A DNA stretch of 32,136 nt from Burkholderiales bacterium (lineage in GTDB: Bacteria; Pseudomonadota; Gammaproteobacteria; Burkholderiales; Burkholderiaceae_C). Location of the stretch: NCBI GenBank assembly GCA_011391855.1, contig JAABPT010000344.1:1-32136 (forward strand). The letters are read 5' to 3'. The position numbers were made by a program, and so were the translations under genes. Position 1 is the first letter of the stretch; each line of letters starts with the position of its first letter. The notes beneath the pieces are model-generated. The model was not told the origin of the DNA. It saw only the letters and a program-made list of their open reading frames with translations, and did not search any database. Of this stretch, positions 6,248-25,200 are shown one piece after another.

Positions 6248-6263
6248 ATTGGGAGTCAGTCGC

Positions 6264-6698
6264 ATGTATGCAGCCGTGGTTGAACCAGGCAAGATCGCCC
6301 AGGTTCTGGGTCTTCGTCGAAAGGTCACCTCGGTCGAACAACTCGAGCAGCAGGTGGAGGCCGGGCTCCCCAAGGCCTCGCTCGGGGCTGTTGCGCGCCA
6401 CGTCTACGGCACCTCGCCGGATGCGGCGGCTTTGATGCAGCGGGTCATCCCGGCGGCCACGTTCCACCGCAGGGGCGAGGAGCTCAAGCCCCAGGAGGGT
6501 GAGCGTGTTGAACGCCTGGCGCGGGTGATCGCGACCGCAGAGTACGTGTGGGACAACGCCGACGACGCTCGCACATTCCTGTCCACTGGTCACGCCATGC
6601 TGGGCGGCAAGCGGCCGATCGAGGTGGCCCTGACGGAGTTGGGAGCGCGCCGGGTCGAAAGCCTGCTGTGGTCGCTGTTCCATGGCGTCGCCGCCTAA
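6264..6698 (+). CDS. Type II antitoxin, Xre/MbcA/ParS family (DUF2384-like)
   Basis: 144 aa; C-terminal AEYVWDNADDARTFLSTGHAMLGGKRPIEVALTELGARRVESLLWSLFHG is typical of MbcA/ParS toxin-binding domains; followed by an overlapping RES gene. Confidence 0.88.
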   Translation: MYAAVVEPGKIAQVLGLRRKVTSVEQLEQQVEAGLPKASLGAVARHVYGTSPDAAALMQRVIPAATFHRRGEELKPQEGERVERLARVIATAEYVWDNADDARTFLSTGHAMLGGKRPIEVALTELGARRVESLLWSLFHGVAA

Positions 6699-7203
6699 GG
6701 CGCGAGCCAAGGCTGCGTCCACCAAACAGGCTCGGTCGCAAGCCTGGCAGGGCTGGCGCATCGCCGACGGACGGTTCGATGTGTTCAGCCCCGTCGGCGC
6801 GTCGCTGGTAGGAGGCCGATGGAATTCACCGGGCCTCGGCGTCATCTATGCGAGCCGCTCCTACGCGGGCGCGATGCTGGAGTGCCTGGCCCACGCGGGT
6901 ATCGGGCGCGTGCCCAGGTCGCACGTGGCGATCGAGATCGCGATCGCAGCTGCCGTGAGCGTCGAGCGGCATGATGAGAGCAGCCTGCCCGCCGGATGGG
7001 ACCACGCGGATCTGCGCGTGGCCCGGGCCTTCGGCGATGCCTGGATTCGTGAGCGGCGAACGGCCGTGCTGGTGGTTCCTTCGGTCGTCGCGCGCAGGGA
7101 AGGGAACGTGCTCCTGAATCCGCAGCATCCTGACTTTAGGAAGATCAGCGCCGGTAGCCCGGAACCGGTGGTCTGGGATGCGCGGCTGTTCGGCCGGCAC
7201 TGA
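6682..7203 (+). CDS. RES-domain toxin
   Basis: GWRIADGRFDVFSPVGASLVGGRWNSPGLGVIYASRSYAGAMLECLAH: RES family R/GRWN and Y..S...A..E motifs; overlaps the antitoxin by 17 nt. Confidence 0.88.
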   Translation: MASPPKARAKAASTKQARSQAWQGWRIADGRFDVFSPVGASLVGGRWNSPGLGVIYASRSYAGAMLECLAHAGIGRVPRSHVAIEIAIAAAVSVERHDESSLPAGWDHADLRVARAFGDAWIRERRTAVLVVPSVVARREGNVLLNPQHPDFRKISAGSPEPVVWDARLFGRH

Positions 7204-7474: not shown

Positions 7475-8479
7475 TCAAGCCGCGGTCCTTGGCCGAGCGT
7501 CTGCAGCAGGCAACGCGAACTCGCCCGCGTCTGGCCACTGCCGAAGCCGATGAAGACGTTGATGGACGAGAGGGAAGTCGAACTCGATCCCCACGCCCAC
7601 CGACGCCATGTGTTCGACACCGAGCTCGATCTGGCTGCCCAGGAAACGCGTGTACGCGCCTTCAAGCACGTAGCGTACGGGCCGGTCCCACACCACCCAG
7701 CCCGTGGGCACGCGGCGACGGGCCCAGACGCTGGCGCTCTCGGCCGAAGCTCGGACATCCACATCGGAGGCCAGGGTGCCGCTGTTGCGTAAGATCACGT
7801 TCGTGTAGCGCAGCTCCAGGTCGACGTCCGCCTCGGGCGCAAAGCGTTCGTAGTCGATCATCAGCGAGCCGCCGAGGCCGTAGGTCTGCATCCTCCCGCG
7901 GTCCAGCGCGGCCAGGTCGACGTTGGTGTTCTCCTCGAGCCACCACTTCGCCCCCGCGAGGTCGCTCGTGAGCCGGCCGTAGGTGAAGCTGAACATCGGC
8001 CGCAGGACCCAGTTCGGCGCCAGCGGGAAGTCCCAGCCGATGCCGCCGGAAACCGACAGCGAGTCCCACTTCACCGGCACCGGGCGCTGCTGCGTGACGT
8101 CGCTGGCCAGGAACACGGGGTCGTAGCGGGCCCAGGCCGCATTGCCCTCGAGATACAGCGGCAGGTCTTTGCTCCAGGTGAAACCGCCGCCGAGCTGCGT
8201 CATAGCCAGGTTGGGGTTGGACGTGGCGGCGTTCTCGATCGACAGCGAGCTCGTGGTCACGTCGGGCGCCACGGTGAAGCTCATGAGCCCGAGGATGCCG
8301 TTGGCAAGGGCCTGCACGTCGACGTCGGCGATCGCTCGCTGGCCGGGCTGCGCCTCGGCCGGCGCGCCGCACAGGACCAGGGCGAGCGCGGCCACCGGCC
8401 AGGGCCGCCACGCCAGCCGCGCGCGCAGCGGTCTCGAAGCCCCGCCCGCCAGGTCGCTGGACATCGGCACTCGCATCAC
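7475..8479 (-). CDS. Outer-membrane beta-barrel protein (autotransporter-barrel-like)
   Basis: Signal-type N-terminus ending GAPAEAQ; alternating beta-strand pattern (LGGGFTWSKDLPLYLEGNAAWARYDP...); the C-terminus does not end in an aromatic residue. Confidence 0.65.
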   Translation of the reverse strand: MMRVPMSSDLAGGASRPLRARLAWRPWPVAALALVLCGAPAEAQPGQRAIADVDVQALANGILGLMSFTVAPDVTTSSLSIENAATSNPNLAMTQLGGGFTWSKDLPLYLEGNAAWARYDPVFLASDVTQQRPVPVKWDSLSVSGGIGWDFPLAPNWVLRPMFSFTYGRLTSDLAGAKWWLEENTNVDLAALDRGRMQTYGLGGSLMIDYERFAPEADVDLELRYTNVILRNSGTLASDVDVRASAESASVWARRRVPTGWVVWDRPVRYVLEGAYTRFLGSQIELGVEHMASVGVGIEFDFPLVHQRLHRLRQWPDAGEFALPAADARPRTAA

Positions 8480-8492
8480 GTCGTCGGCTCCG

Positions 8493-9599
8493 TCATCCGG
8501 CAGGAACGGTGATCACCGGCGAGACCTGTCCGCCGCCCGACTCGGTGAGCGTGAACAGGAACATCAGGAAAGAGAAGATCCCTTTGGAGCCCAGGTCGCG
8601 GTCGTCGATCCAGAACCAGTTGTCGCGGTAGCGGATGGCGACGAACGCATCGTCCGGCCGCTCCGGGCCACTGCGGACACGGATCAGCGGCTCCAGGCCA
8701 CCGGTCAGGTGGGCCAGGTCGGCGAAGCCCGGCGAGGCACGTTTCTCGGCTACGTGCGCGGCGGGCACGTCGATGTAGGAGGACATGTCGAGCAGGATCT
8801 CCAGCATCGACCGCGTCAGCATGGTGATCTCCCGCCCGTCCCTCGACGCCGTGCCGTAGACGACGCGGTACTCCTCGGCGCCTACCTCGAGGCCCAGCAG
8901 CCGCTCGGCCTCGGCAATATCCTCCGGCGTGGCGCCCGACTTGCGGGGGCGGAAGAAGAGCGTGGTGGCCTGCATGTCCTTCTCGCGCACGACGCGCACG
9001 CCCACGCCGCCAGCGCCCTGGATGCGCCTGACCACCGCGAGGAACTGCACGAAGTCCGGGTCGGCAGGCCTGCCGTAAAGCATCCGCTGGCCGAAGTTCT
9101 GCAGGCCGTTGAGCGTGTGCACGCAGCATCGCAGCAGCGCCTCGGCGCTCCAGCCGGCCTGGATCAGCGACAGCAGCGCGCCCGGCGGGATGGGCGTCAT
9201 CAGGCTGCGGCTGAACTTCTCGCCCAGCAAGGGGTTGTAGGTGATGGTGGGCCGGTCGGTGAACTTGCTGGCACCGCCGAGCGTGAGGGTGTTGGCGTTG
9301 CCCGCCAGGGGGCGCAGGAGTTCAGCCTCCGCGCTGACACCGGTCTCGATCGAGTAGGAGTTGATCGCCGAGGCGATGTCCAGGAAAACGGGGACGTCTC
9401 CGTATCGCGCTTTGACCAGGTTGAGCAGCATCTGGCTCTTCCAGGAGTCGGAGATCGCGGCGGCGTAGTCGAAGCGGTCGCGCGTGATCGTCGACGGGCC
9501 GAGTGTGGCGCAGCCGGCCACGGCCAGCACGAGCGCCGCAAGGCCCGCGAGCAGTGCCCACCGCCGCTGGCTCCGGGTCCTGGCAGGCGATGCGCTCAC
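8493..9599 (-). CDS. Putative lipoprotein of unknown function
   Basis: GTG start at 9599 gives VSASPARTRSQRRWALLAGLAALVLAVAGCATL with a lipobox (AVAGC); conserved-looking C-terminus; collinear with neighbours. Confidence 0.75.
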   Translation of the reverse strand: MSASPARTRSQRRWALLAGLAALVLAVAGCATLGPSTITRDRFDYAAAISDSWKSQMLLNLVKARYGDVPVFLDIASAINSYSIETGVSAEAELLRPLAGNANTLTLGGASKFTDRPTITYNPLLGEKFSRSLMTPIPPGALLSLIQAGWSAEALLRCCVHTLNGLQNFGQRMLYGRPADPDFVQFLAVVRRIQGAGGVGVRVVREKDMQATTLFFRPRKSGATPEDIAEAERLLGLEVGAEEYRVVYGTASRDGREITMLTRSMLEILLDMSSYIDVPAAHVAEKRASPGFADLAHLTGGLEPLIRVRSGPERPDDAFVAIRYRDNWFWIDDRDLGSKGIFSFLMFLFTLTESGGGQVSPVITVPAG

Positions 9600-9672
9600 G
9601 CGAGCGGCCCGCACCTGCAGGCACGGCGCGAGGCGGCGACGGTGATGGGCTTCACCTCGCCGGCCCACATCC

Positions 9673-12069
9673 TCACCGCACCTCGACCGTGATCTTCGGG
9701 ATGCGCCCGCTGAAGCGCGACTTGGCTTCTGCTCCGATGGCCTCGACCACGGGTGTGCCGAGGTCGAGCCCGACGTCGGCCGTCTCGTCGGCCGAGAACA
9801 GTCCCGCCTGCGTGACGCCGATGCGCCCTTCGCCGACTTTCTCGCCGTCCACGAGCAGCGTGCCCATGCCGCCCTTCGACGGCCCGCCGCCGTCGTAAGC
9901 GAAATTGAACACGAGCGTGTGCTTGCCCGGCGCAAGCTTCTTCGCCGAGGCCACAGAGAAGCGCTGAAGGCCTAGGAAGTTGTAGTCGTAGGCCGGCATG
10001 CCGTCCTTCACGTACAGCGACCAGCCGCCGAACCTCCCGCCCTGGGCGATGACGGTGCCGTTGCCGCCGCCCTCGGGCACCTCTATTTCGGCGGTGAGGG
10101 TCTTGGAGCGGTTCTTCACGTTGGGGAATACGCCCTCCATCATGCCGGTCATGCCCTCAGCCAGCGTCATGGCATTGCGCCCGGCCATCAGGTCGGGCCG
10201 GCCCATCGCCGCCGGATCCAGGCGTTCGAAGACCCGGTCGTCCAGCGGCAGCACACCGTACTTGCGCGCTTCCGTCAGGAACAGCGCCTGCATCTCGGCC
10301 AGCTTCTTGGGGTTCTTCGCTGCCAAGTCATTGACCAGGCTGAAGTCCGAGCGCGTGTCGTACAGCTCCCAACCCGAGCTGTCTTCCAGCGCGCGGCGCG
10401 GCTTGGCCTCCCAAGGCGCGCGGTGGATCGTGCGTGCGAACCAGCCGTCGTGGTAGATCGCGCGGTTGCCGGCGATCTCGAAGTATTGCGTGGTGTGGCG
10501 ATCCTTGGCCTTAGCGTCCTCGAAGGTATAGACCATGCTGGTACCTGACATCGGCACCTGCTTGACACCGTTGACGCTCTTGGGCTCGGGCAGGCCTATC
10601 GCCTGCAGCACCGTGGGCGCCACGTCGATCACATGGCTGAACTGGGTGCGCAACTCGTTCTTCGCCTTGATGCCCTTGGGCCAGCTGACCACCATGCCGT
10701 TGCGCGTGCCACCGAAGTCCGACGGCACCTGCTTCATCCAGCCAAAGGGGCTGTTGAGGGCCACCGCCCAGCCCGCCGCCATGTGCGGATAGGTCTCGGG
10801 ACCGCCCCACTTGTCCATTAGCTTGAGCATGTCCTCGACCTTTTCCTGCACGCCATTGAAGTAGGTGTACTCGTTGAACATGCCGCTCTGGCCGCCCTCG
10901 CCGCTGGTACCGTTGTCTCCGGCGATGTAGAAGACCAAGGTGTTGTCGGCCTCGCCGACTTCCTTGAACGCGTCCAGCATGCGGCCGATCTCGTGGTCGG
11001 TGTAGTCGGCGAATGCCGCGAACACCTCGGCCTGGCGCGTGTACAGGCGCTTCTCGTCGGCGCTGAGCGTGTCCCAGTCCTTGATCGCTGCCGGCTTGGG
11101 CGCCAGCTTGGTGCCCGCCGGCACCACGCCCAACGCGATCTGCCGCGCAAGTGTCGCCTCGCGGATCTTGTCCCAGCCTGCGTCGAACTTGCCCTTCCAC
11201 TTCGCGATCCATTCCTTGGGCACGTGGTGCGGCGCATGCGTGGCGCCGGGCGCGAAATAGACGAACGACGGCCGGTCGGGCGTCAACGCCTTCTGGTACT
11301 TGATCCAGGCCCGCGCCTTCTCGGTCATGTCGTTCATGAAGTGGTAGTTCGGGTCGTTCGGCAGCTCGACCTGCGCCACACCGTCATACAAGAACGGCGC
11401 CCACTGGTTGGTCTCACCACCGATGAAGCCGTAGAACTTGTCAAAGCCCTGGCGCGTGGGCCAGCGATCGAAGGGGCCGGCCTCGCTTGCCTCCCAGGCG
11501 GCGGTTTCATGCCACTTGCCGAACGCCGCCGTGGCGTAGCCGTTCAATCGCAGCGTCTCGGCCAGCGGCGCGGTGGTGCTCGGCACCTGTCCGGTGCCAC
11601 CGGGGAAGCCGGTCGCCATCTCGGTGATGAAGCCCATGTTCACCTGGTGGTGGTTGCGGCCCGACTTCAGCGCCGCGCGGGTCGGCGAGCACAGCGCGGT
11701 GGTGTGGAAGTTGTTGTAGCGCAACCCGTTCTGGGCCAGCTTGTCCAGCGTGGGCATCGGCACCGGCCCACCGAAGGTGCCGGGCACGCCGAAGCCCAAG
11801 TCGTCGATCAGCACGATCACGACGTTCGGCGCCTTGGCCGGCGCCTTGACCTCGAAACGAGGTGGCATCTTCGCCTTGCGCACGTCGATCTCCGTGATGG
11901 CGGGCCGCTTGGGCTCGACGATCGGCAGCACGGTGCGGTCGAGCTTGTCAGCCGCCTGCGCAAACGCGGCCCAGGGCGCCACGGCCGCGACAACGGCGAC
12001 GGCCACGCCTACCAGCGAGCGCGCGACGGGGTACGCTGCGGAGGGCGTCCTGTGAAGTGATGCGTTCAT
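9673..12069 (-). CDS. Periplasmic arylsulfatase (sulfatase family, Cys-type)
   Basis: Signal peptide; NVVIVLIDDLGFG metal-binding motif; CSPTRAALKSGR sulfatase signature with formylglycine Cys; HAPHHVPKEW; C-terminal jelly-roll-like domain. Confidence 0.95.
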   Translation of the reverse strand: MNASLHRTPSAAYPVARSLVGVAVAVVAAVAPWAAFAQAADKLDRTVLPIVEPKRPAITEIDVRKAKMPPRFEVKAPAKAPNVVIVLIDDLGFGVPGTFGGPVPMPTLDKLAQNGLRYNNFHTTALCSPTRAALKSGRNHHQVNMGFITEMATGFPGGTGQVPSTTAPLAETLRLNGYATAAFGKWHETAAWEASEAGPFDRWPTRQGFDKFYGFIGGETNQWAPFLYDGVAQVELPNDPNYHFMNDMTEKARAWIKYQKALTPDRPSFVYFAPGATHAPHHVPKEWIAKWKGKFDAGWDKIREATLARQIALGVVPAGTKLAPKPAAIKDWDTLSADEKRLYTRQAEVFAAFADYTDHEIGRMLDAFKEVGEADNTLVFYIAGDNGTSGEGGQSGMFNEYTYFNGVQEKVEDMLKLMDKWGGPETYPHMAAGWAVALNSPFGWMKQVPSDFGGTRNGMVVSWPKGIKAKNELRTQFSHVIDVAPTVLQAIGLPEPKSVNGVKQVPMSGTSMVYTFEDAKAKDRHTTQYFEIAGNRAIYHDGWFARTIHRAPWEAKPRRALEDSSGWELYDTRSDFSLVNDLAAKNPKKLAEMQALFLTEARKYGVLPLDDRVFERLDPAAMGRPDLMAGRNAMTLAEGMTGMMEGVFPNVKNRSKTLTAEIEVPEGGGNGTVIAQGGRFGGWSLYVKDGMPAYDYNFLGLQRFSVASAKKLAPGKHTLVFNFAYDGGGPSKGGMGTLLVDGEKVGEGRIGVTQAGLFSADETADVGLDLGTPVVEAIGAEAKSRFSGRIPKITVEVR

Positions 12070-12145
12070 TGCGTTGTCGCTCCGTGAAGAATGAAGTCTT
12101 GCGAGGAACGCCGGGCCGGCTTGCTGTCCGTTAAGGAGCAGGCCA

Positions 12146-12991
12146 TCACCAGCGGAAAACCGCCGAAACCGACGGCCCGTTGAAGGTCAGGCTCTGGATC
12201 GCATTGCCGGACTTCATCTCGTAGTCGAGGTAACGCCAAGAAGCGACCACATCGCCCCACTGGAACGAATATCCGACACCGCCCACGGCCTGCCAGGTGA
12301 GCTTCGATTCGCCGGCCCCGACATCCAGGTAGTAGGGCACGAACCACTTGCGGTCGGCGCCCAGCGCAAGCCGGCCCTTGACGCCGACGATGCCGTCCCA
12401 GTTGCTCAGTTCGACCCTGGAAGTGCCGGCACGGCCAGGCGCCGGGATCGAGCCGAGGTTGCCCGTGATGTCCCAGCTCAGCGTCTGAGTGATGTCGAGC
12501 CAGCGGGCGCCGGCAAGCACGTCGAGCGTGGCGGCCGGGTCGGCCATGGCGTGCCAGGTGCCGGCCAGCGTCCAACCCCATCCCTTCAGGTCGTAGTCGA
12601 CCTTGGCGCTTGCGTCGGCAGGAATCGCCCCGCCGGCGATGCTGAAATCGCGCAAACCCGACTTGGTGTTGCCGATGTCCATGTAAAGCACATCGGTGAA
12701 CAGGCCCCACGAGCCCCTGGACGCCCCGAAGCTGCCCATGAAGGCCATCTTCAGGTTGTCGACGATCGTGCTGGCATCGACCAGCGCGTCGCCCGACCCG
12801 GCGGGGGTCAATGGAAAGGCCGTCGTGCCGCCGATGTCTGGCAGATACAGGTTCACCGCAGCCTGGAACCTCCAGTTGTCGGTGGCCTGCGCGGAGGCCG
12901 GGAGCGTAACTAAGACCATCGGCGCGGCAAGCGTCGCCGCGAGCAGGGCCTTCAATTCATGCCTTGGTTTTGCCGTGCTTGAGCTGTACAT
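12146..12991 (-). CDS. Outer-membrane beta-barrel protein
   Basis: Signal peptide (…LPASAQA), NLYLPDIGGTT, repeated beta strands, C-terminal aromatic residue (…SVSAVFRW). Confidence 0.75.
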   Translation of the reverse strand: MYSSSTAKPRHELKALLAATLAAPMVLVTLPASAQATDNWRFQAAVNLYLPDIGGTTAFPLTPAGSGDALVDASTIVDNLKMAFMGSFGASRGSWGLFTDVLYMDIGNTKSGLRDFSIAGGAIPADASAKVDYDLKGWGWTLAGTWHAMADPAATLDVLAGARWLDITQTLSWDITGNLGSIPAPGRAGTSRVELSNWDGIVGVKGRLALGADRKWFVPYYLDVGAGESKLTWQAVGGVGYSFQWGDVVASWRYLDYEMKSGNAIQSLTFNGPSVSAVFRW

Positions 12992-13048
12992 CGATCTCTT
13001 TCTTCTGATTTCTCGTTCGGGCCGGTATGACGCCGGTCCGAAGTGCTG

Positions 13049-13402
13049 TCAGAGCCGAACGGAGCGACGCGCGACGCCGCCGACGTTGCCGACGACACCG
13101 GGCTGGTTCAGGCCCGGGTCGACGACACCGACGCCCGGTGCGCCGACGCCCACGCCCGGTGTCACGCCGACACCCGGCGCACCCACGCCAGGTGCCCCGA
13201 CGCCGACGTTTCCTGCACGACCGGGCTGGTTGATGCCCGGATCCACCGCGCCGACGCCTGGAGCGCCCACTCCGCGCGTGACGCCCGGTCCCGGCTTGCC
13301 GACACCGACTCCGGGATCGACCGCAAAGGCCGCTCCGGTCAGCCCCATCAGCGCGGCGCTAATCACGAGGGCCGGTACGCGCTGTCGAAATTCGTAGCTC
13401 AT
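13049..13402 (-). CDS. Secreted elastin-like Gly/Pro/Val repeat protein
   Basis: Signal peptide MSYEFRQRVPALVISAALMGLTGAAFA followed by repeats of APGVG/TPGVG/DPG; in line with neighbouring genes. Confidence 0.65.
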   Translation of the reverse strand: MSYEFRQRVPALVISAALMGLTGAAFAVDPGVGVGKPGPGVTRGVGAPGVGAVDPGINQPGRAGNVGVGAPGVGAPGVGVTPGVGVGAPGVGVVDPGLNQPGVVGNVGGVARRSVRL

Positions 13403-13442
13403 TGTGTTCTCCCGTTTGCCATTGCGAAGTTGCGGCTGGCAG

Positions 13443-13922
13443 CTACTGCGCGACATACACCAGGTTGTTGCCCTGGAAGCCCGAGCGGTACAGCACGCCG
13501 CCGCAGTTCTGGTACTCGACGCCGCTCTTCGTCTCCGGCTTGCATCCCGCAGGCAGTGCGTTGACGACCGTGCCGGCCGGCGGTGCACCTGCGGGGCGCG
13601 CAGCGGCCTGCTGTTGCGCGGTGGCCGCCTGCTGCTGTGCCGTGGCCGCTTGTTGCTGCGCCGTGGCCTGCTGCTGCTGCGCGGTGGCGGCCTGCTGCTG
13701 CGACGTGGCCGACGTCGCGGCCGATCCGGCGGCCACGGTGCGAGCGGTCGTGCGCCGCGCCACGCCGGCCACCGACACGGGTGTCAGCGGTGCGCCCACG
13801 ATCGCTTGGGCCTCGCGCATCCATGTAAACCCGCCTTGTGCATCGGGCGCGTAGTTGCCGAGGTAAAGCAGCGGCAACGCCGCGGTGACGGCGAGTGCCT
13901 TGAAGATACTGCGTTGTGTCAT
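13443..13922 (-). CDS. Small exported protein with ATAQQQ tandem repeat and C-terminal two-Cys domain
   Basis: N-terminal hydrophobic segment; (QQQAATA)n repeat; C-terminal AGCKPETKSGVEYQNCGGVLYRSGFQGNNLVYVAQ. Confidence 0.75.
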   Translation of the reverse strand: MTQRSIFKALAVTAALPLLYLGNYAPDAQGGFTWMREAQAIVGAPLTPVSVAGVARRTTARTVAAGSAATSATSQQQAATAQQQQATAQQQAATAQQQAATAQQQAAARPAGAPPAGTVVNALPAGCKPETKSGVEYQNCGGVLYRSGFQGNNLVYVAQ

Positions 13923-13938
13923 GTGCTTCCCCTGGGTT

Positions 13939-14703
13939 TCAGCGCGGCAGGAAGTCGACCTTCTTCGCGCCGGTCGGTGGCGTGAAGTTGAAGGTCTGCT
14001 CGTTGAACACCGGCTTCAGGTTCCACTTCGTCATCGTGACGGCGAACTGCGGTGCGTTGGGCAGGTCGCGCGTCGTGATGACCAGCTTGCGTGGCAAAGG
14101 CTGCGCGCCTTCCTGGACCCAGACCTGCAGGTCGACGTGCGGCGCGCGGAACGCGAGCTGGTCGCAGCGCACGCCTTCGATCACCGCCTTGCCGACGACG
14201 AAACCGTCGGTCACACCGTCCATCAGGATCTCGTACGCGTTCTTGTTGAGCAGGTCGCCGGCGGGCGCAACGATGTCGAGCTTGGTGCGCGCGAACTCGA
14301 GCATGCTCTCCAGCGTCTCGGGTGCGGCCACCTGGGCATAAGCCTTGTCCTGCGGGTTGAAGAGCGTCAGCGATTTGCCGTCGTAGATGAAGACCTGGTT
14401 GACCAGATCGCCGCTGCGCTCGGCACGCAGCTTGTTCGGCCTTTGCGCCGAGGTCTTGGCGATGTGGTTGAACTCGATCTTCTGGCCGGACTTCAGCACC
14501 GCCTCGAGCGTGTTGCGCGTCTCGGCGCTGAATTGCTTCTGGCTGGCGAGGAAGTCGGTCGAGGCCTTCAGCAGCCTTTGCGCCTCGGGATCGATGCCCG
14601 CGGGCTGTGCCTGTACGGCGAAGGTTGCCAAGCAGGCAGCCGCCAGGAACGTGGCGCGCCGGACCCAAGGGATCGTCGCGCGGGGGCGCAGGGGGGTGGA
14701 CAT
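13939..14703 (-). CDS. DUF2092-like periplasmic protein (LolA-like fold predicted)
   Basis: ATG at 14703; signal peptide (…AACLATFAVQAQ); DPEAQRLLKASTDFLASQKQFSAETRNTLEAVLKSGQKIEF… is DUF2092-like. Confidence 0.75.
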   Translation of the reverse strand: MSTPLRPRATIPWVRRATFLAAACLATFAVQAQPAGIDPEAQRLLKASTDFLASQKQFSAETRNTLEAVLKSGQKIEFNHIAKTSAQRPNKLRAERSGDLVNQVFIYDGKSLTLFNPQDKAYAQVAAPETLESMLEFARTKLDIVAPAGDLLNKNAYEILMDGVTDGFVVGKAVIEGVRCDQLAFRAPHVDLQVWVQEGAQPLPRKLVITTRDLPNAPQFAVTMTKWNLKPVFNEQTFNFTPPTGAKKVDFLPR

Positions 14704-14989: not shown

Positions 14990-16123
14990 ATGTCCAACAA
15001 GCCTCCCACCGGCACGCGCCCCACCCCGACTCTGACCTCGCGCGGCGCCACGGTGCGTCTGGGGCCGCTGGCGAAGATTCCCGATCTCCTCCGGATACTG
15101 GGATACGCACCCGAGTCCGTCCTGCCGGGCCTGGGCTACGAGCTGGGGTTCTTCGAGGACCCGGAGTTGCCGGTCTCCTACGTCGCCGCGAGCGCGCTGC
15201 TCGCCCGTTGCGTGGAGTGGACCGGTTGCGAACACTTCGGGTTGCGCCTGGGCGAGGGCGCCGATCCGACGGCGCTGGGGCTGGCGGGCTTCGTGCTGAT
15301 GAACGCCCCGGACGTGGGCACGGCGCTGCGGGACCTCGTGTGCTTCCTGGACCTGCACGACCGGGGCGGCATCGCGACTCTAAAGACCTCGGGCGACACG
15401 ACGCTGCTCGGCTTCTTGATTGTCGAACCCGGCGTCGAAGCGCTCGAACAGGTTCACGACCTCTCCATTGCCGTGGCCTGCAACGTCATGCGAAGCCTGT
15501 GCGGCCCGGCATGGAACCCGGCGAAAGTGCTGCTACCCCATCGGAAACCTGACGACGCCCGACCGTGGAAGGCCTTCTTCCGCTCCCCGGTGCACTTCGA
15601 CGCTGGGCAGAGCGCGATGGCGTTCCCCTCGTCGTGGCTGCGCAAACCGGTGGCCGCGGCCAACCCGGCGCTGCACCGGCTGCTGGAGCGCCAGGCGGCG
15701 GCGTTGCGCAGCCAGGCCGGCTCCGGCTTCGTGGCCGAGGTTCAGCGCGTCGCGCACGGGCTCATCGCGCACGGCGCCTGCTCCGCGACGCGCGTCGCCG
15801 CCATGCTCGGTCTGCACGAGCGCGCGCTGAACCGGCGGTTGCAGGCTGCGGGCACGACCTTCATGAAGCTGCGCGATGCCGCGCTGTACGACAAGTCGCG
15901 CCAGCTGCTTGGCTTCAGCGGCATGAACCTGGCGGAGGTCGCCGAAGCGTTGGGCTATGCAGACGCCACGACTTTCATCCGGGCCTTTCACCGCTGGTCA
16001 GGACAGACGCCGGCGCAATGGCGGCGCGAGCAGTCACATTGGCAGACGGCTGCCGACCGGCGTAAGCCCGGACAGCCGTCAGGCGCGACTGCGCTGGCAC
16101 TCGGCCGAGGACCGACCTGTTAG
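14990..16123 (+). CDS. AraC-family transcriptional regulator (with N-terminal Arabinose_bd-like domain)
   Basis: ATG at 14990; C-terminal HTH: ATRVAAMLGLHERALNRRLQAAGTTF...LLGFSGMNLAEVAEALGYADATTFIRAFHRWSGQTPAQWRR; divergent to the sulfatase cluster. Confidence 0.93.
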   Translation: MSNKPPTGTRPTPTLTSRGATVRLGPLAKIPDLLRILGYAPESVLPGLGYELGFFEDPELPVSYVAASALLARCVEWTGCEHFGLRLGEGADPTALGLAGFVLMNAPDVGTALRDLVCFLDLHDRGGIATLKTSGDTTLLGFLIVEPGVEALEQVHDLSIAVACNVMRSLCGPAWNPAKVLLPHRKPDDARPWKAFFRSPVHFDAGQSAMAFPSSWLRKPVAAANPALHRLLERQAAALRSQAGSGFVAEVQRVAHGLIAHGACSATRVAAMLGLHERALNRRLQAAGTTFMKLRDAALYDKSRQLLGFSGMNLAEVAEALGYADATTFIRAFHRWSGQTPAQWRREQSHWQTAADRRKPGQPSGATALALGRGPTC

Positions 16124-19783: not shown

Positions 19784-20665
<882 letters not shown>

Positions 20666-20677
20666 AAGCATGAAAGC

Positions 20678-21762
<1,085 letters not shown>

Positions 21763-21766
<4 letters not shown>

Positions 21767-22449
21767 GCAGCGACCAGTGCGACGAAGGCAGGGCTTGCGG
21801 CGACGACGAGGGGTGCTTGCGCGACGCGGCGGTGGCCGCCCTGCGACGCCTGGACGCCCTGGGCATGAACCGCGGCAGCACCGGCAACCTGAGCCTGCGC
21901 CAGGGCGAAGGCATGCTGATCACGCCCACGGGCATGGGCGCCGACGAATTGCGGCCGCAGGACCTGGTGTGGCTGGGCTGGGACGGCAAGCAGCGTGGCA
22001 CCTGGCAGCCGAGTTCGGAATGGCATTTCCACCAGGCGATCTACTTCGCGCGGCCCGACCTGCACGCTGTCGTGCACTGCCACTCGGTGCACGCCACTGC
22101 GCTGGCCTGCCTGCGGCGCGAACTGCCAGCCTTCCACTACATGGTGGCGGTGGCCGGCGGCGACAGCGTGCCCTTGGTGCGCTACCACCTGTTCGGCACC
22201 GGCGCCTTGTCGGCCGCGGTGGCGCAAGGCCTGCAGGACCGCGACGCCTGCCTGCTGGCCAACCATGGCCTGGTGGCGGCGGGGCCCACGCTGGCACGTG
22301 CCATGAAGGTGGCGCAGGAGATCGAGTCGCTGTGCGAGACCTACCTCAAGGCGCTGGCGGTGGGTGAGCCGGTGCTCTTGTCGCGCGTGCAGATGGACGA
22401 GGTGATCCATCGCTTCCGCAGTTACGGCAAGGCGGTGCGCACGCCCTGA
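21763..22449 (+). CDS. Class II aldolase/adducin family protein, candidate 5-deoxy/methylthio-ribulose-1-phosphate aldolase
   Basis: NRGSTGNLSLR, EWHFHQAIYFARPDLHAVVHCHSVHATALAC, LANHGLVAAG; ATGA overlap with mtnA. Confidence 0.88.
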
Positions 22450-22542
22450 GCCCGGGGTTCCCCGGCAAGGGACCCGACCCCAGAATTCGGCGCGGTGCGT
22501 GGCGACGCGCAAATCGTGCTTGATCGACGCCGACATGGCCAA

Positions 22543-22558
22543 ATATCCAGATGGATAT
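22543..22558. promoter_or_regulatory. Palindrome ATATCC-AGAT-GGATAT upstream of the Memo-AMMECR1 gene
   Basis: Perfect 6-bp arms in a 133-nt intergenic gap, 25 nt upstream of ATG 22583. Confidence 0.35.
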
Positions 22559-22582
22559 GCACACGCACATGGGGAACAAGCG

Positions 22583-24097
22583 ATGACTGCCATCCGTGCC
22601 GCCGCCGTGGCGGGCAGCTTCTACCCGGGCGCGGCACAGGCTTTGCGCCAGGCGGTTGCCGGCCATCTGGCAGCGGCGGCCGGTTTCGCGGCAAGTTCCG
22701 ACGAAACCACTGACGAAACTGCCGACGAAGCCGCCGCTGGAACCGCCACCGAAGCCGCCGCCGAAGCCGCGGCAGGTCACCCACCCAAGCTGCTGGTGGT
22801 GCCGCACGCCGGCTATGTCTATTCGGGTGACGTGGCGGCGCTGGCCTATGCACCCTTGCGGCGGTGGCGCGGGCGCATCCGGCGCGTGGTGCTGCTGGGC
22901 CCGGTGCACCGGGTGGCGGTGCGCGGGCTGGCGGCACCCACCGTCGAGGCTTTCGAAACACCGCTGGGACGCGTGCCGCTGGACCGGGCCGCGCTGGACT
23001 CGCTGCGCGACCTGCCGCAGGTGGGTTTCAGCGACCTGCCGCACGAGCACGAACACTCGCTGGAGGTGCAGCTGCCGTTCCTCCAGGCCGTGCTCGGCAA
23101 CGGCTTCCCGCTGGTGCCGCTGGCGGTGGGGCAAGCCAGTCCGCAGCAGGTGGCGCAGGTGCTGGAACGTCTTTGGGGCGGCGAGGAGACGCTGGTCGTC
23201 ATCAGCTCCGACCTCTCGCACTACCTGCCCTATGCACAGGCGCAGGCCCGCGACAAGGCCACCGTGCAGCGCATCCTGCACTTCGCCACCGACCTGCGCG
23301 GCGAAGAGGCCTGCGGTGCGGCGCCGCTCAACGGCGCGTTGCTCGTGGCGCGCCAACACGGCCTGGTGCCGCGCTTGCTGGGGCTGCGCAATTCCGCCGA
23401 CGCGACGGGCATGACGCGCGCCGACCGCAACCGCGTGGTCGGCTATGGCGCCATCGCGTTCGATTCGCAACAGGCAGCCGCCGCTGCGCAGGACGAAGGC
23501 AGCGAAGGTGACCAGAACGGGGAAGCGCGCCTGGGGCGTGCCTTGGTGGGCGCGGCCCGCCAGTCCATCGCCGACGCCCTGGGCCTGCAGCCTGCCGACG
23601 CCGGGATCGACGCCGAGCATCCTGCGCTGGCCCGCCCGGGCGCCAGCTTCGTCACCCTGCACGGCGCCGACGGCTGTTTGCGCGGCTGCATCGGCCGGCT
23701 GCAAGCCGTGCGCCCGCTGATCGAGGACGTGCGCGCCAATGCCCGCGCCGCGGCCTTCCAGGACACCCGCTTCCCGCCGCTGCGCACGCATGAATGGCCG
23801 GGCCTGCAGGTCGAGGTTTCGGTGCTGGGCGCAGCCGAGCCGCTGGCCGCGGCCAGCGAGGCCGAAGCCCGGGCCGCGCTGCGGCCGGGCGTCGACGGCG
23901 TGATCTTCGAATGGCGCGATGCCCGAGCCACCTTCCTGCCGCAGGTCTGGCAGCAGTTGCCCGACGCCCGCGGCTTTCTCGCCGCGCTCAAGAAGAAAGC
24001 TGGGCTGGCGGCCGACTTCTGGTCGGACGAGGTGCGGCTGTCGCGCTACCGCGTGCGCAGTTTTACCGATCATGTCCCGAGAGGAGCCCAGGCATGA
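22583..24097 (+). CDS. AmmeMemoRadiSam system protein: Memo-AMMECR1 fusion
   Basis: N-terminal Memo domain (RAAAVAGSFYPGAAQ…VVPHAGYVYSGDVAALAY…GPVHRVAV…HEHEHSLEVQLPFLQ…SSDLSHYLPY) and C-terminal AMMECR1 domain (SFVTLHGADGCLRGCIGRLQAVRPL…NARAAAFQDTRFPPL). Confidence 0.95.
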   Translation: MTAIRAAAVAGSFYPGAAQALRQAVAGHLAAAAGFAASSDETTDETADEAAAGTATEAAAEAAAGHPPKLLVVPHAGYVYSGDVAALAYAPLRRWRGRIRRVVLLGPVHRVAVRGLAAPTVEAFETPLGRVPLDRAALDSLRDLPQVGFSDLPHEHEHSLEVQLPFLQAVLGNGFPLVPLAVGQASPQQVAQVLERLWGGEETLVVISSDLSHYLPYAQAQARDKATVQRILHFATDLRGEEACGAAPLNGALLVARQHGLVPRLLGLRNSADATGMTRADRNRVVGYGAIAFDSQQAAAAAQDEGSEGDQNGEARLGRALVGAARQSIADALGLQPADAGIDAEHPALARPGASFVTLHGADGCLRGCIGRLQAVRPLIEDVRANARAAAFQDTRFPPLRTHEWPGLQVEVSVLGAAEPLAAASEAEARAALRPGVDGVIFEWRDARATFLPQVWQQLPDARGFLAALKKKAGLAADFWSDEVRLSRYRVRSFTDHVPRGAQA

Positions 24098-25200
24098 ACA
24101 CCGTCGTCCCTTCGATCGAACTCGACGCTGGGAGTCCGGCCCGCTGGTGGCACCCGTTGCCCGACGGCCGCATCCAGTGCGACCTGTGCCCGCGCGACTG
24201 CAAGCTGCACGAAGGCCAACGCGGCCTGTGCTTCGTGCGCCAGCGCGTGGGCGACGCCATGGTGCTGGCCACCTACGGCCGCAGCTCGGGCTTCTGTCTC
24301 GACCCCATCGAAAAGAAGCCGCTGAACCACTTTCTGCCGGGCTCCAGCGTCTTCTCCTTCGGCACCGCCGGCTGCAACCTGGCCTGCAAGTTCTGCCAGA
24401 ACTGGGACATCTCCAAGAGCCGCGAGATGGACCGGTTGATGGACACCGCGTCGCCACGGCGCATTGCGCAGGCGGCGCAGGCCAGCGGTGCGGCCAGCGT
24501 GGCCTTCACCTACAACGACCCGGTGATCTTCGCCGAGTACGCCATGGACACGGCCGACGCCTGTCACGAACTCGGTATCAAGACGGTGGCGGTGACCGCG
24601 GGCTATATCCACCCAGTGCCGCGGCGCGCCTTCTTCGACAAGATGGACGCCGCCAATGTGGACCTGAAGGCTTTCACCGACGACTTCTACCAGCAGCAGA
24701 CCGGATCGCACCTGGCGCCGGTGCTCGACACGTTGCAGCACATCCGCCACGACACGACGTGTTGGCTGGAGATCACCACGCTGCTGATCCCGGGGCTGAA
24801 CGACAGCACGGCCGAACTGGAGGCCATGACGCGCTGGATCGCCGAGCACCTGGGCCCCGACGTGCCGCTGCACTTCAGCGCCTTTCACCCCGACTACAAG
24901 ATGGGCGACGTGCCGCGCACGCCGGCCGCCACGCTGACCCGTGCGCGGCGCATCGCGCGCGCCAACGGCCTGCGCCATGTGTACACCGGCAACGTGCACG
25001 ACGCCGAGGGTGACACCACGTTCTGCCCAGGCTGCGAGGCGAAGCTGATCGAACGCGACTGGCACGCGGTGTTGCACTACGGGCTTGACGCCCATGGCGG
25101 CTGCCCGCAGTGCGGCACGCGCATCGCCGGGCACTTCGCGCCGACATTCGAACGTGGCTTCGGCCGCCGGCGCGTGCCGATCCGCGTCTCGCCGCGGTAG
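24094..25200 (+). CDS. amrS: AmmeMemoRadiSam system radical SAM enzyme
   Basis: CNLACKFCQNWDIS radical SAM cluster motif; CDLCPRDCKLHEGQRGLCFVR N-terminus; ATGA overlap with upstream gene. Confidence 0.93.
   Translation: MNTVVPSIELDAGSPARWWHPLPDGRIQCDLCPRDCKLHEGQRGLCFVRQRVGDAMVLATYGRSSGFCLDPIEKKPLNHFLPGSSVFSFGTAGCNLACKFCQNWDISKSREMDRLMDTASPRRIAQAAQASGAASVAFTYNDPVIFAEYAMDTADACHELGIKTVAVTAGYIHPVPRRAFFDKMDAANVDLKAFTDDFYQQQTGSHLAPVLDTLQHIRHDTTCWLEITTLLIPGLNDSTAELEAMTRWIAEHLGPDVPLHFSAFHPDYKMGDVPRTPAATLTRARRIARANGLRHVYTGNVHDAEGDTTFCPGCEAKLIERDWHAVLHYGLDAHGGCPQCGTRIAGHFAPTFERGFGRRRVPIRVSPR

Follow-up and report, generated by a model that had tools for sequence, protein, structure and literature searches.

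A predicted periplasmic sulfatase gene of a Burkholderiales bacterium lies in what is probably an undescribed envelope system

A contig of a Burkholderiales bacterium (JAABPT010000344.1, assembly GCA_011391855.1), analysed here over a stretch of 32,136 nucleotides (the window), carries a predicted sulfatase gene amid genes for other exported proteins, which raises the question of whether these genes form one functional unit and on what such a unit would act. Seven genes, designated A to G, follow one another on the minus strand from position 14703 to 7475 in the order A-B-C-D-E-F-G, and a regulator gene, R, is divergent from them:

14990..16123, + strand: R, AraC-family regulator with a PF12625 ligand-binding domain (Pfam)
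13939..14703, - strand: A, DUF2092 protein, periplasmic and LolA-like (PF09865)
13443..13922, - strand: B, small exported protein, found directly after A elsewhere too
13049..13402, - strand: C, exported PGVG-repeat (elastin-like) protein, an ORF with a GGGAG ribosome-binding site
12146..12991, - strand: D, outer-membrane beta-barrel of about 10 strands by AlphaFold2, matching no Pfam model
9673..12069, - strand: E, exported 798-aa formylglycine-type sulfatase (predicted, PF00884) with a C-terminal extension
8493..9599, - strand: F, predicted outer-membrane lipoprotein of an unnamed family (lipobox)
7475..8479, - strand: G, second outer-membrane barrel, co-directional (PF03797)

The ORF calls and the sequence agree with the coordinates of the seven collinear genes described in the initial annotation, the intergenic gaps from A to G being 16, 40, 57, 76, 73 and 13 nt; the export signal ascribed there to every product is visible by eye in all seven. 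A high-GC3 coding bias characterises every called ORF, with the exception of C, which was missed by a simple ORF caller and starts at 13402; F starts at about 9599 with GTG. A terminator search compared with shuffled sequences found no convincing internal terminator within the run: only one terminator-like hit was obtained, within E, which is fewer than expected from shuffling and gives no sign that the run is split. For a flanking dusC-like gene, identity to the best copy is 67-81% in most genomes of the same genus and 52-66% outside it; the contig therefore fits the genus and contamination is unlikely. Inspection of the window ORFs revealed no TonB receptor or sulfate transporter, in line with the earlier reading, and carbon-use or sulfur-use genes are absent from the seven-gene cluster.

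The enzyme at the centre of the run is E, which scores 193.9 bits against PF00884 (gathering score 25). Its sulfatase domain and full catalytic set align with AtsA of Pseudomonas aeruginosa (SulfAtlas S1_4, PDB 1hdh), with equivalents of the C51/R55 motif, K113, H115, H211, D317, N318 and K375 kept, the C-x-P-x-R motif reading CSPTR, and the DD and DN metal residues aligned. The positions follow the active-site numbering of AtsA. E is thus predicted to be a formylglycine-type sulfatase with a complete set of catalytic residues. Unlike AtsA, it has a visible signal peptide, about 200 extra C-terminal residues and envelope-gene neighbours. The genome also encodes an anaerobic sulfatase maturase on contig C223 (TIGR03942, 459 bits against a cut-off of 349), whose gene adjoins that of a sulfatase paralog 52% identical to E, while a second paralog, 84% identical, is encoded on contig C218. 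A separate sulfatase of about 530-570 aa occurs with a HAD-type phosphatase at loci L102, L072 and L013, in the first two of them near a DUF2092-B pair.

A scores 239.7 bits against PF09865 (cut-off 21.2), and the DUF2092 family, which two papers of the open-licence literature mention, has been published as LolA-related (PMC4520260). A profile built from 15 relatives of A matches the LolA structure 8orn weakly, at 3e-4. The score of A against the lolA equivalog model, 17.9 bits, is far below the cut-off of 112, so that A is regarded as LolA-like and not as LolA itself; unlike the LolA/LolB carriers, it is an accessory, multi-copy protein paired with B. The latter was initially annotated as a Q-repeat protein, which captures its Q-rich linker and leaves out two features shared by its family, a conserved motif in the N-terminal part, VGAPLTPVSVAGVARRT, and a two-Cys module at the C-terminal end that resembles DUF6515. 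Membership in DUF6515 itself is rejected, B scoring 13 bits against PF20125 (cut-off 24.9) and its best relative 23.9, still under the cut-off.

The pairing of A with B is nearly universal: a small exported low-complexity B-like gene directly follows A in about 21 of the 27 A loci outside the genome studied, a soft count that combines 12 genes recognised by motif with 3 that BLAST added and 6 picked out by eye. In rhizobia there is a 4-bp overlap between the A and B genes, and B has the near-invariant motif RPLTPVSVAGVARRT; on rhizobial plasmids it is a precursor of 69-70 aa, with some 30 mature residues as estimated by eye, ending in (R)(I/V)GRPLTPVSVAGVARRT(V/T)RRCA(V/A)GVYxC, with one variant. 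The A-B pair is frequent without an E-type sulfatase, for example at most of the rhizobial loci inspected. Desulfation is therefore not a constant function of A-B, and the sulfatase is perhaps a plug-in to an A-B(-D) system of wider scope.

The AlphaFold2 model of D (pLDDT 80, pTM 0.75) is a barrel whose C-terminal residue is aromatic and whose fold matches are generic, of the porin/omptin kind with a TM of about 0.55. The lipobox of F, LAVAG|C, was identified by eye, and its cysteine is invariant in 19 relatives. F matches no Pfam model, and its AlphaFold2 model (pLDDT 80, pTM 0.73) resembles no PDB fold at E<=0.001, so the predicted fold is apparently new. An amphipathic-hairpin pore was considered for F and rejected: the alternation along the strands, although significant (z about 4.5), is not diagnostic, since scores about as high were obtained for two further strands of F.

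G scores 31.8 bits against PF03797 (cut-off 26), and its homologs elsewhere, 41-49% identical, occur without other cluster genes nearby: BLAST found none of A, B, D, E or F near G homologs in eight other genomes. These neighbourhoods double as a control for chance co-location. G is excluded from the module by them, although A and G, as well as D and G, co-occur by genome. No counterpart of C was found at the other loci compared.

The divergent AraC regulator reported earlier is present, R scoring 115.9 bits against PF12625 and 66.7 bits against HTH_18. It was not assigned to QhpR, its score with model NF049968 being 197.4 bits, below the cut-off of 250. R is 49% identical to the regulator of a paralogous cluster on contig C37 of the same genome, where an AraC gene is divergent from A'-B'-D'-A'' (A' 50%, B' 44% and D' 66% identical to the window proteins), with no C, E, F or G. 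The window cluster thus has a duplicated core of A-B-D and the regulator. A search for an operator common to the two promoters yielded just one 9-mer present in both. Contig C443 of the same genome carries one more A-B pair, and in other genomes R-type regulators adjoin E (L100, L151) or D and A (L190). By eye, DUF3604, mechanosensitive-channel and carbonic anhydrase-like genes lie beside A-B-D-A on C37 (184-7631).

A counterpart outside the genome is on plasmid pRle248d of Rhizobium leguminosarum, where genes for adenylate cyclase, A, B, an alpha/beta hydrolase, D, an outer-membrane 'transporter', a formylglycine-generating enzyme and E follow one another in one direction (D identified by profile at 4e-46, E 47% identical). 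On pSymA of Sinorhizobium meliloti R28 the series is A, B, hydrolase, D and transporter. These plasmids thus keep A, B and D in the relative order of the window, and pRle248d also E; they differ by the added cyclase, hydrolase, outer-membrane channel and formylglycine-generating enzyme, F and G were not found there, and their B is of the short form. A DUF3604 gene is also found near the pRle248d locus. On a Mesorhizobium plasmid, MesoLjLa2, an E-type sulfatase, a formylglycine-generating enzyme, a transporter and a divergent HTH regulator are bracketed by integrases and IS91 transposases, which may represent a mobile form.

Shorter combinations recur more widely. A-B-x-E and A-E are found at L195 and L193, respectively, E-F at L010 and L125, D-F at L014 and L022, A, D and F at L066, and A-F at L135; any two of A, D, E and F are linked in one or more genomes besides the one studied. 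In a 60-genome sample of the genus, D is present in four genomes besides the one studied (L100, L111, L181 and L182), and in 4/4 of them, which are not independent as they share that genus, an E-type sulfatase lies just upstream on the same strand, cut by the contig edge in three. D precedes E in the window and follows it in these genomes, while at L073, from another family, a fragment of E stands beside D on the opposite strand. Among 273 other genomes of the class, A (present in 10) and F (in 11) occur together in five, two of which share a genus (Fisher 9e-6, by a test that ignores phylogeny). A is encoded in 3/60 genomes of the genus sample, the one studied included, and F is absent from the 36 same-genus genomes searched; given this patchy distribution within the genus, the module has possibly spread horizontally. 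DUF1254/DUF1214 proteins and a PF13557-like outer-membrane channel, which are absent from the window, are encoded near E or D at L181, L151, L010, L144 and L204; nothing on DUF1254 together with a sulfatase was found in the open-licence literature.

None of the other genomes compared contains all seven genes, and the initial proposal that they act as one functional unit holds for a part of them. The neighbourhoods conserved in other genomes support it for A, B, D, E and F and do not support it for C, which was seen nowhere else, or for G, a conserved family with unrelated neighbourhoods. The refuting condition set with the initial proposal, a gene order shared with no other genome, does not hold: A-B-D-E stand in the same relative order on the alphaproteobacterial plasmid pRle248d and A-B-D with a divergent AraC gene again in the same genome. 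Conservation of A-B-D-E, together with the linkage of F, argues for a functional unit, and these five proteins are probably parts of an undescribed envelope system; no description of such a module was found in the open-licence literature.

An enzyme, a lipid-carrier-like protein, an outer-membrane barrel and a regulator with a ligand-binding domain suit a system that takes up an amphipathic sulfate ester and desulfates it. The reading preferred here, at a probability of about 0.38, is that the cluster encodes a regulated accessory envelope module which would import and desulfate such an ester. A sulfated hydrophobic or aromatic compound would enter through the outer membrane via D and perhaps G; E, once activated by a sulfatase maturase, would desulfate the compound in the periplasm; A, being LolA-like, and its partner B would shield and ferry the hydrophobic product or a lipid; F could anchor or scaffold the assembly on the periplasmic side of the outer membrane; and R would detect the compound and switch the cluster on. 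Against this reading stand the lack of carbon-use and sulfur-use genes in the cluster, the frequent A-B pairs with no E-type sulfatase, and the E-type sulfatases encoded away from A, D and F, in some cases next to ABC or Bug-type binding proteins. For this module we infer the substrate, the direction of transport, a physical complex and control by R. Bacteroidota-type polysaccharide-utilisation loci are likewise regulated sets of surface and outer-membrane proteins with a periplasmic sulfatase, whereas the seven genes include no TonB/SusC, SusD or glycoside hydrolase. More broadly, and rather tentatively, the Proteobacteria may possess an unrecognised system in which a LolA-like protein with a coupled, exported (R/A)PLTPVSVAGVARRT partner, a dedicated outer-membrane barrel, a new-fold outer-membrane lipoprotein and a formylglycine sulfatase move a sulfated amphiphile across the periplasm and edit it.

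The main rival to uptake is self-remodelling of the envelope, in which A would move and E would edit a sulfated lipid or glycan of the cell itself or a misplaced outer-membrane lipid, perhaps as a stress response. The LolA-like nature of A, the location of all parts in the periplasm or outer membrane and the proximity of the paralogous clusters to a mechanosensitive channel gene are consistent with this possibility. It is also favoured by patatin-like genes near a few A loci, but this association is weak (2/27 loci by motif), no gene for a sulfotransferase or for sulfolipid synthesis was noticed in the vicinity, and patchiness within the genus is easier to explain with an optional substrate than with a housekeeping lipid; on balance self-remodelling seems a possible though distinctly less probable explanation than uptake. 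It is a little more doubtful still that the cluster combines two or three modules that are independent of each other (A-B, D-E, F and G), co-transcribed in this genome and serving separate pathways. Each of A-B, D-E and F is found alone in other genomes, C and G are unlinked and the order of D and E varies, but the recurrence of all pairs of A, D, E and F and the A-B-D-E order held across classes argue against such a mixture.

An ordinary sulfur-scavenging arylsulfatase locus is unlikely. E is related to P. aeruginosa AtsA, which is made in sulfate-free medium (PMC5066984), and some relatives of E adjoin ABC or Bug-type binding proteins. The conserved partners of E are, however, envelope proteins, and a family scan of the seven genes and R, with the flanks viewed by eye, revealed neither a sulfonate/sulfate-ester ABC transporter nor a sulfur regulator. 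That the cluster builds a surface structure, with B and C forming the matrix, is very improbable: the exported B and C are of low complexity and are accompanied by two barrels and an outer-membrane lipoprotein, but C is not conserved, the rhizobial B has no more than 69-70 aa, and no secretion machinery was seen.

The cluster brings together several unannotated orphan families, namely DUF2092, that of B, the D barrel and the F lipoprotein, as parts of a single, testable, enzyme-centred module. The A-B pair and D are also found on plasmids of Sinorhizobium and Rhizobium, in which gene deletion is routine, so that their function could be tested directly there. Well-defined problems for further work are the near-invariant motif of B and the fold of F, which is apparently new.

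Two further gene groups lie in the window outside the cluster. Just past its 3' end, at 6249-7203 on the plus strand, is a pair encoding an Xre/MbcA/ParS-type antitoxin and a RES-domain toxin, and a RES/Xre pair is likewise found near the DUF2092-B locus of a Rhizobium plasmid (L215). At 19784-25200, also on the plus strand, apparent methionine salvage genes were recognised by eye (MTA phosphorylase, MTR-1-P isomerase and class II aldolase), followed by MEMO/AMMECR1-like and radical SAM-like genes.
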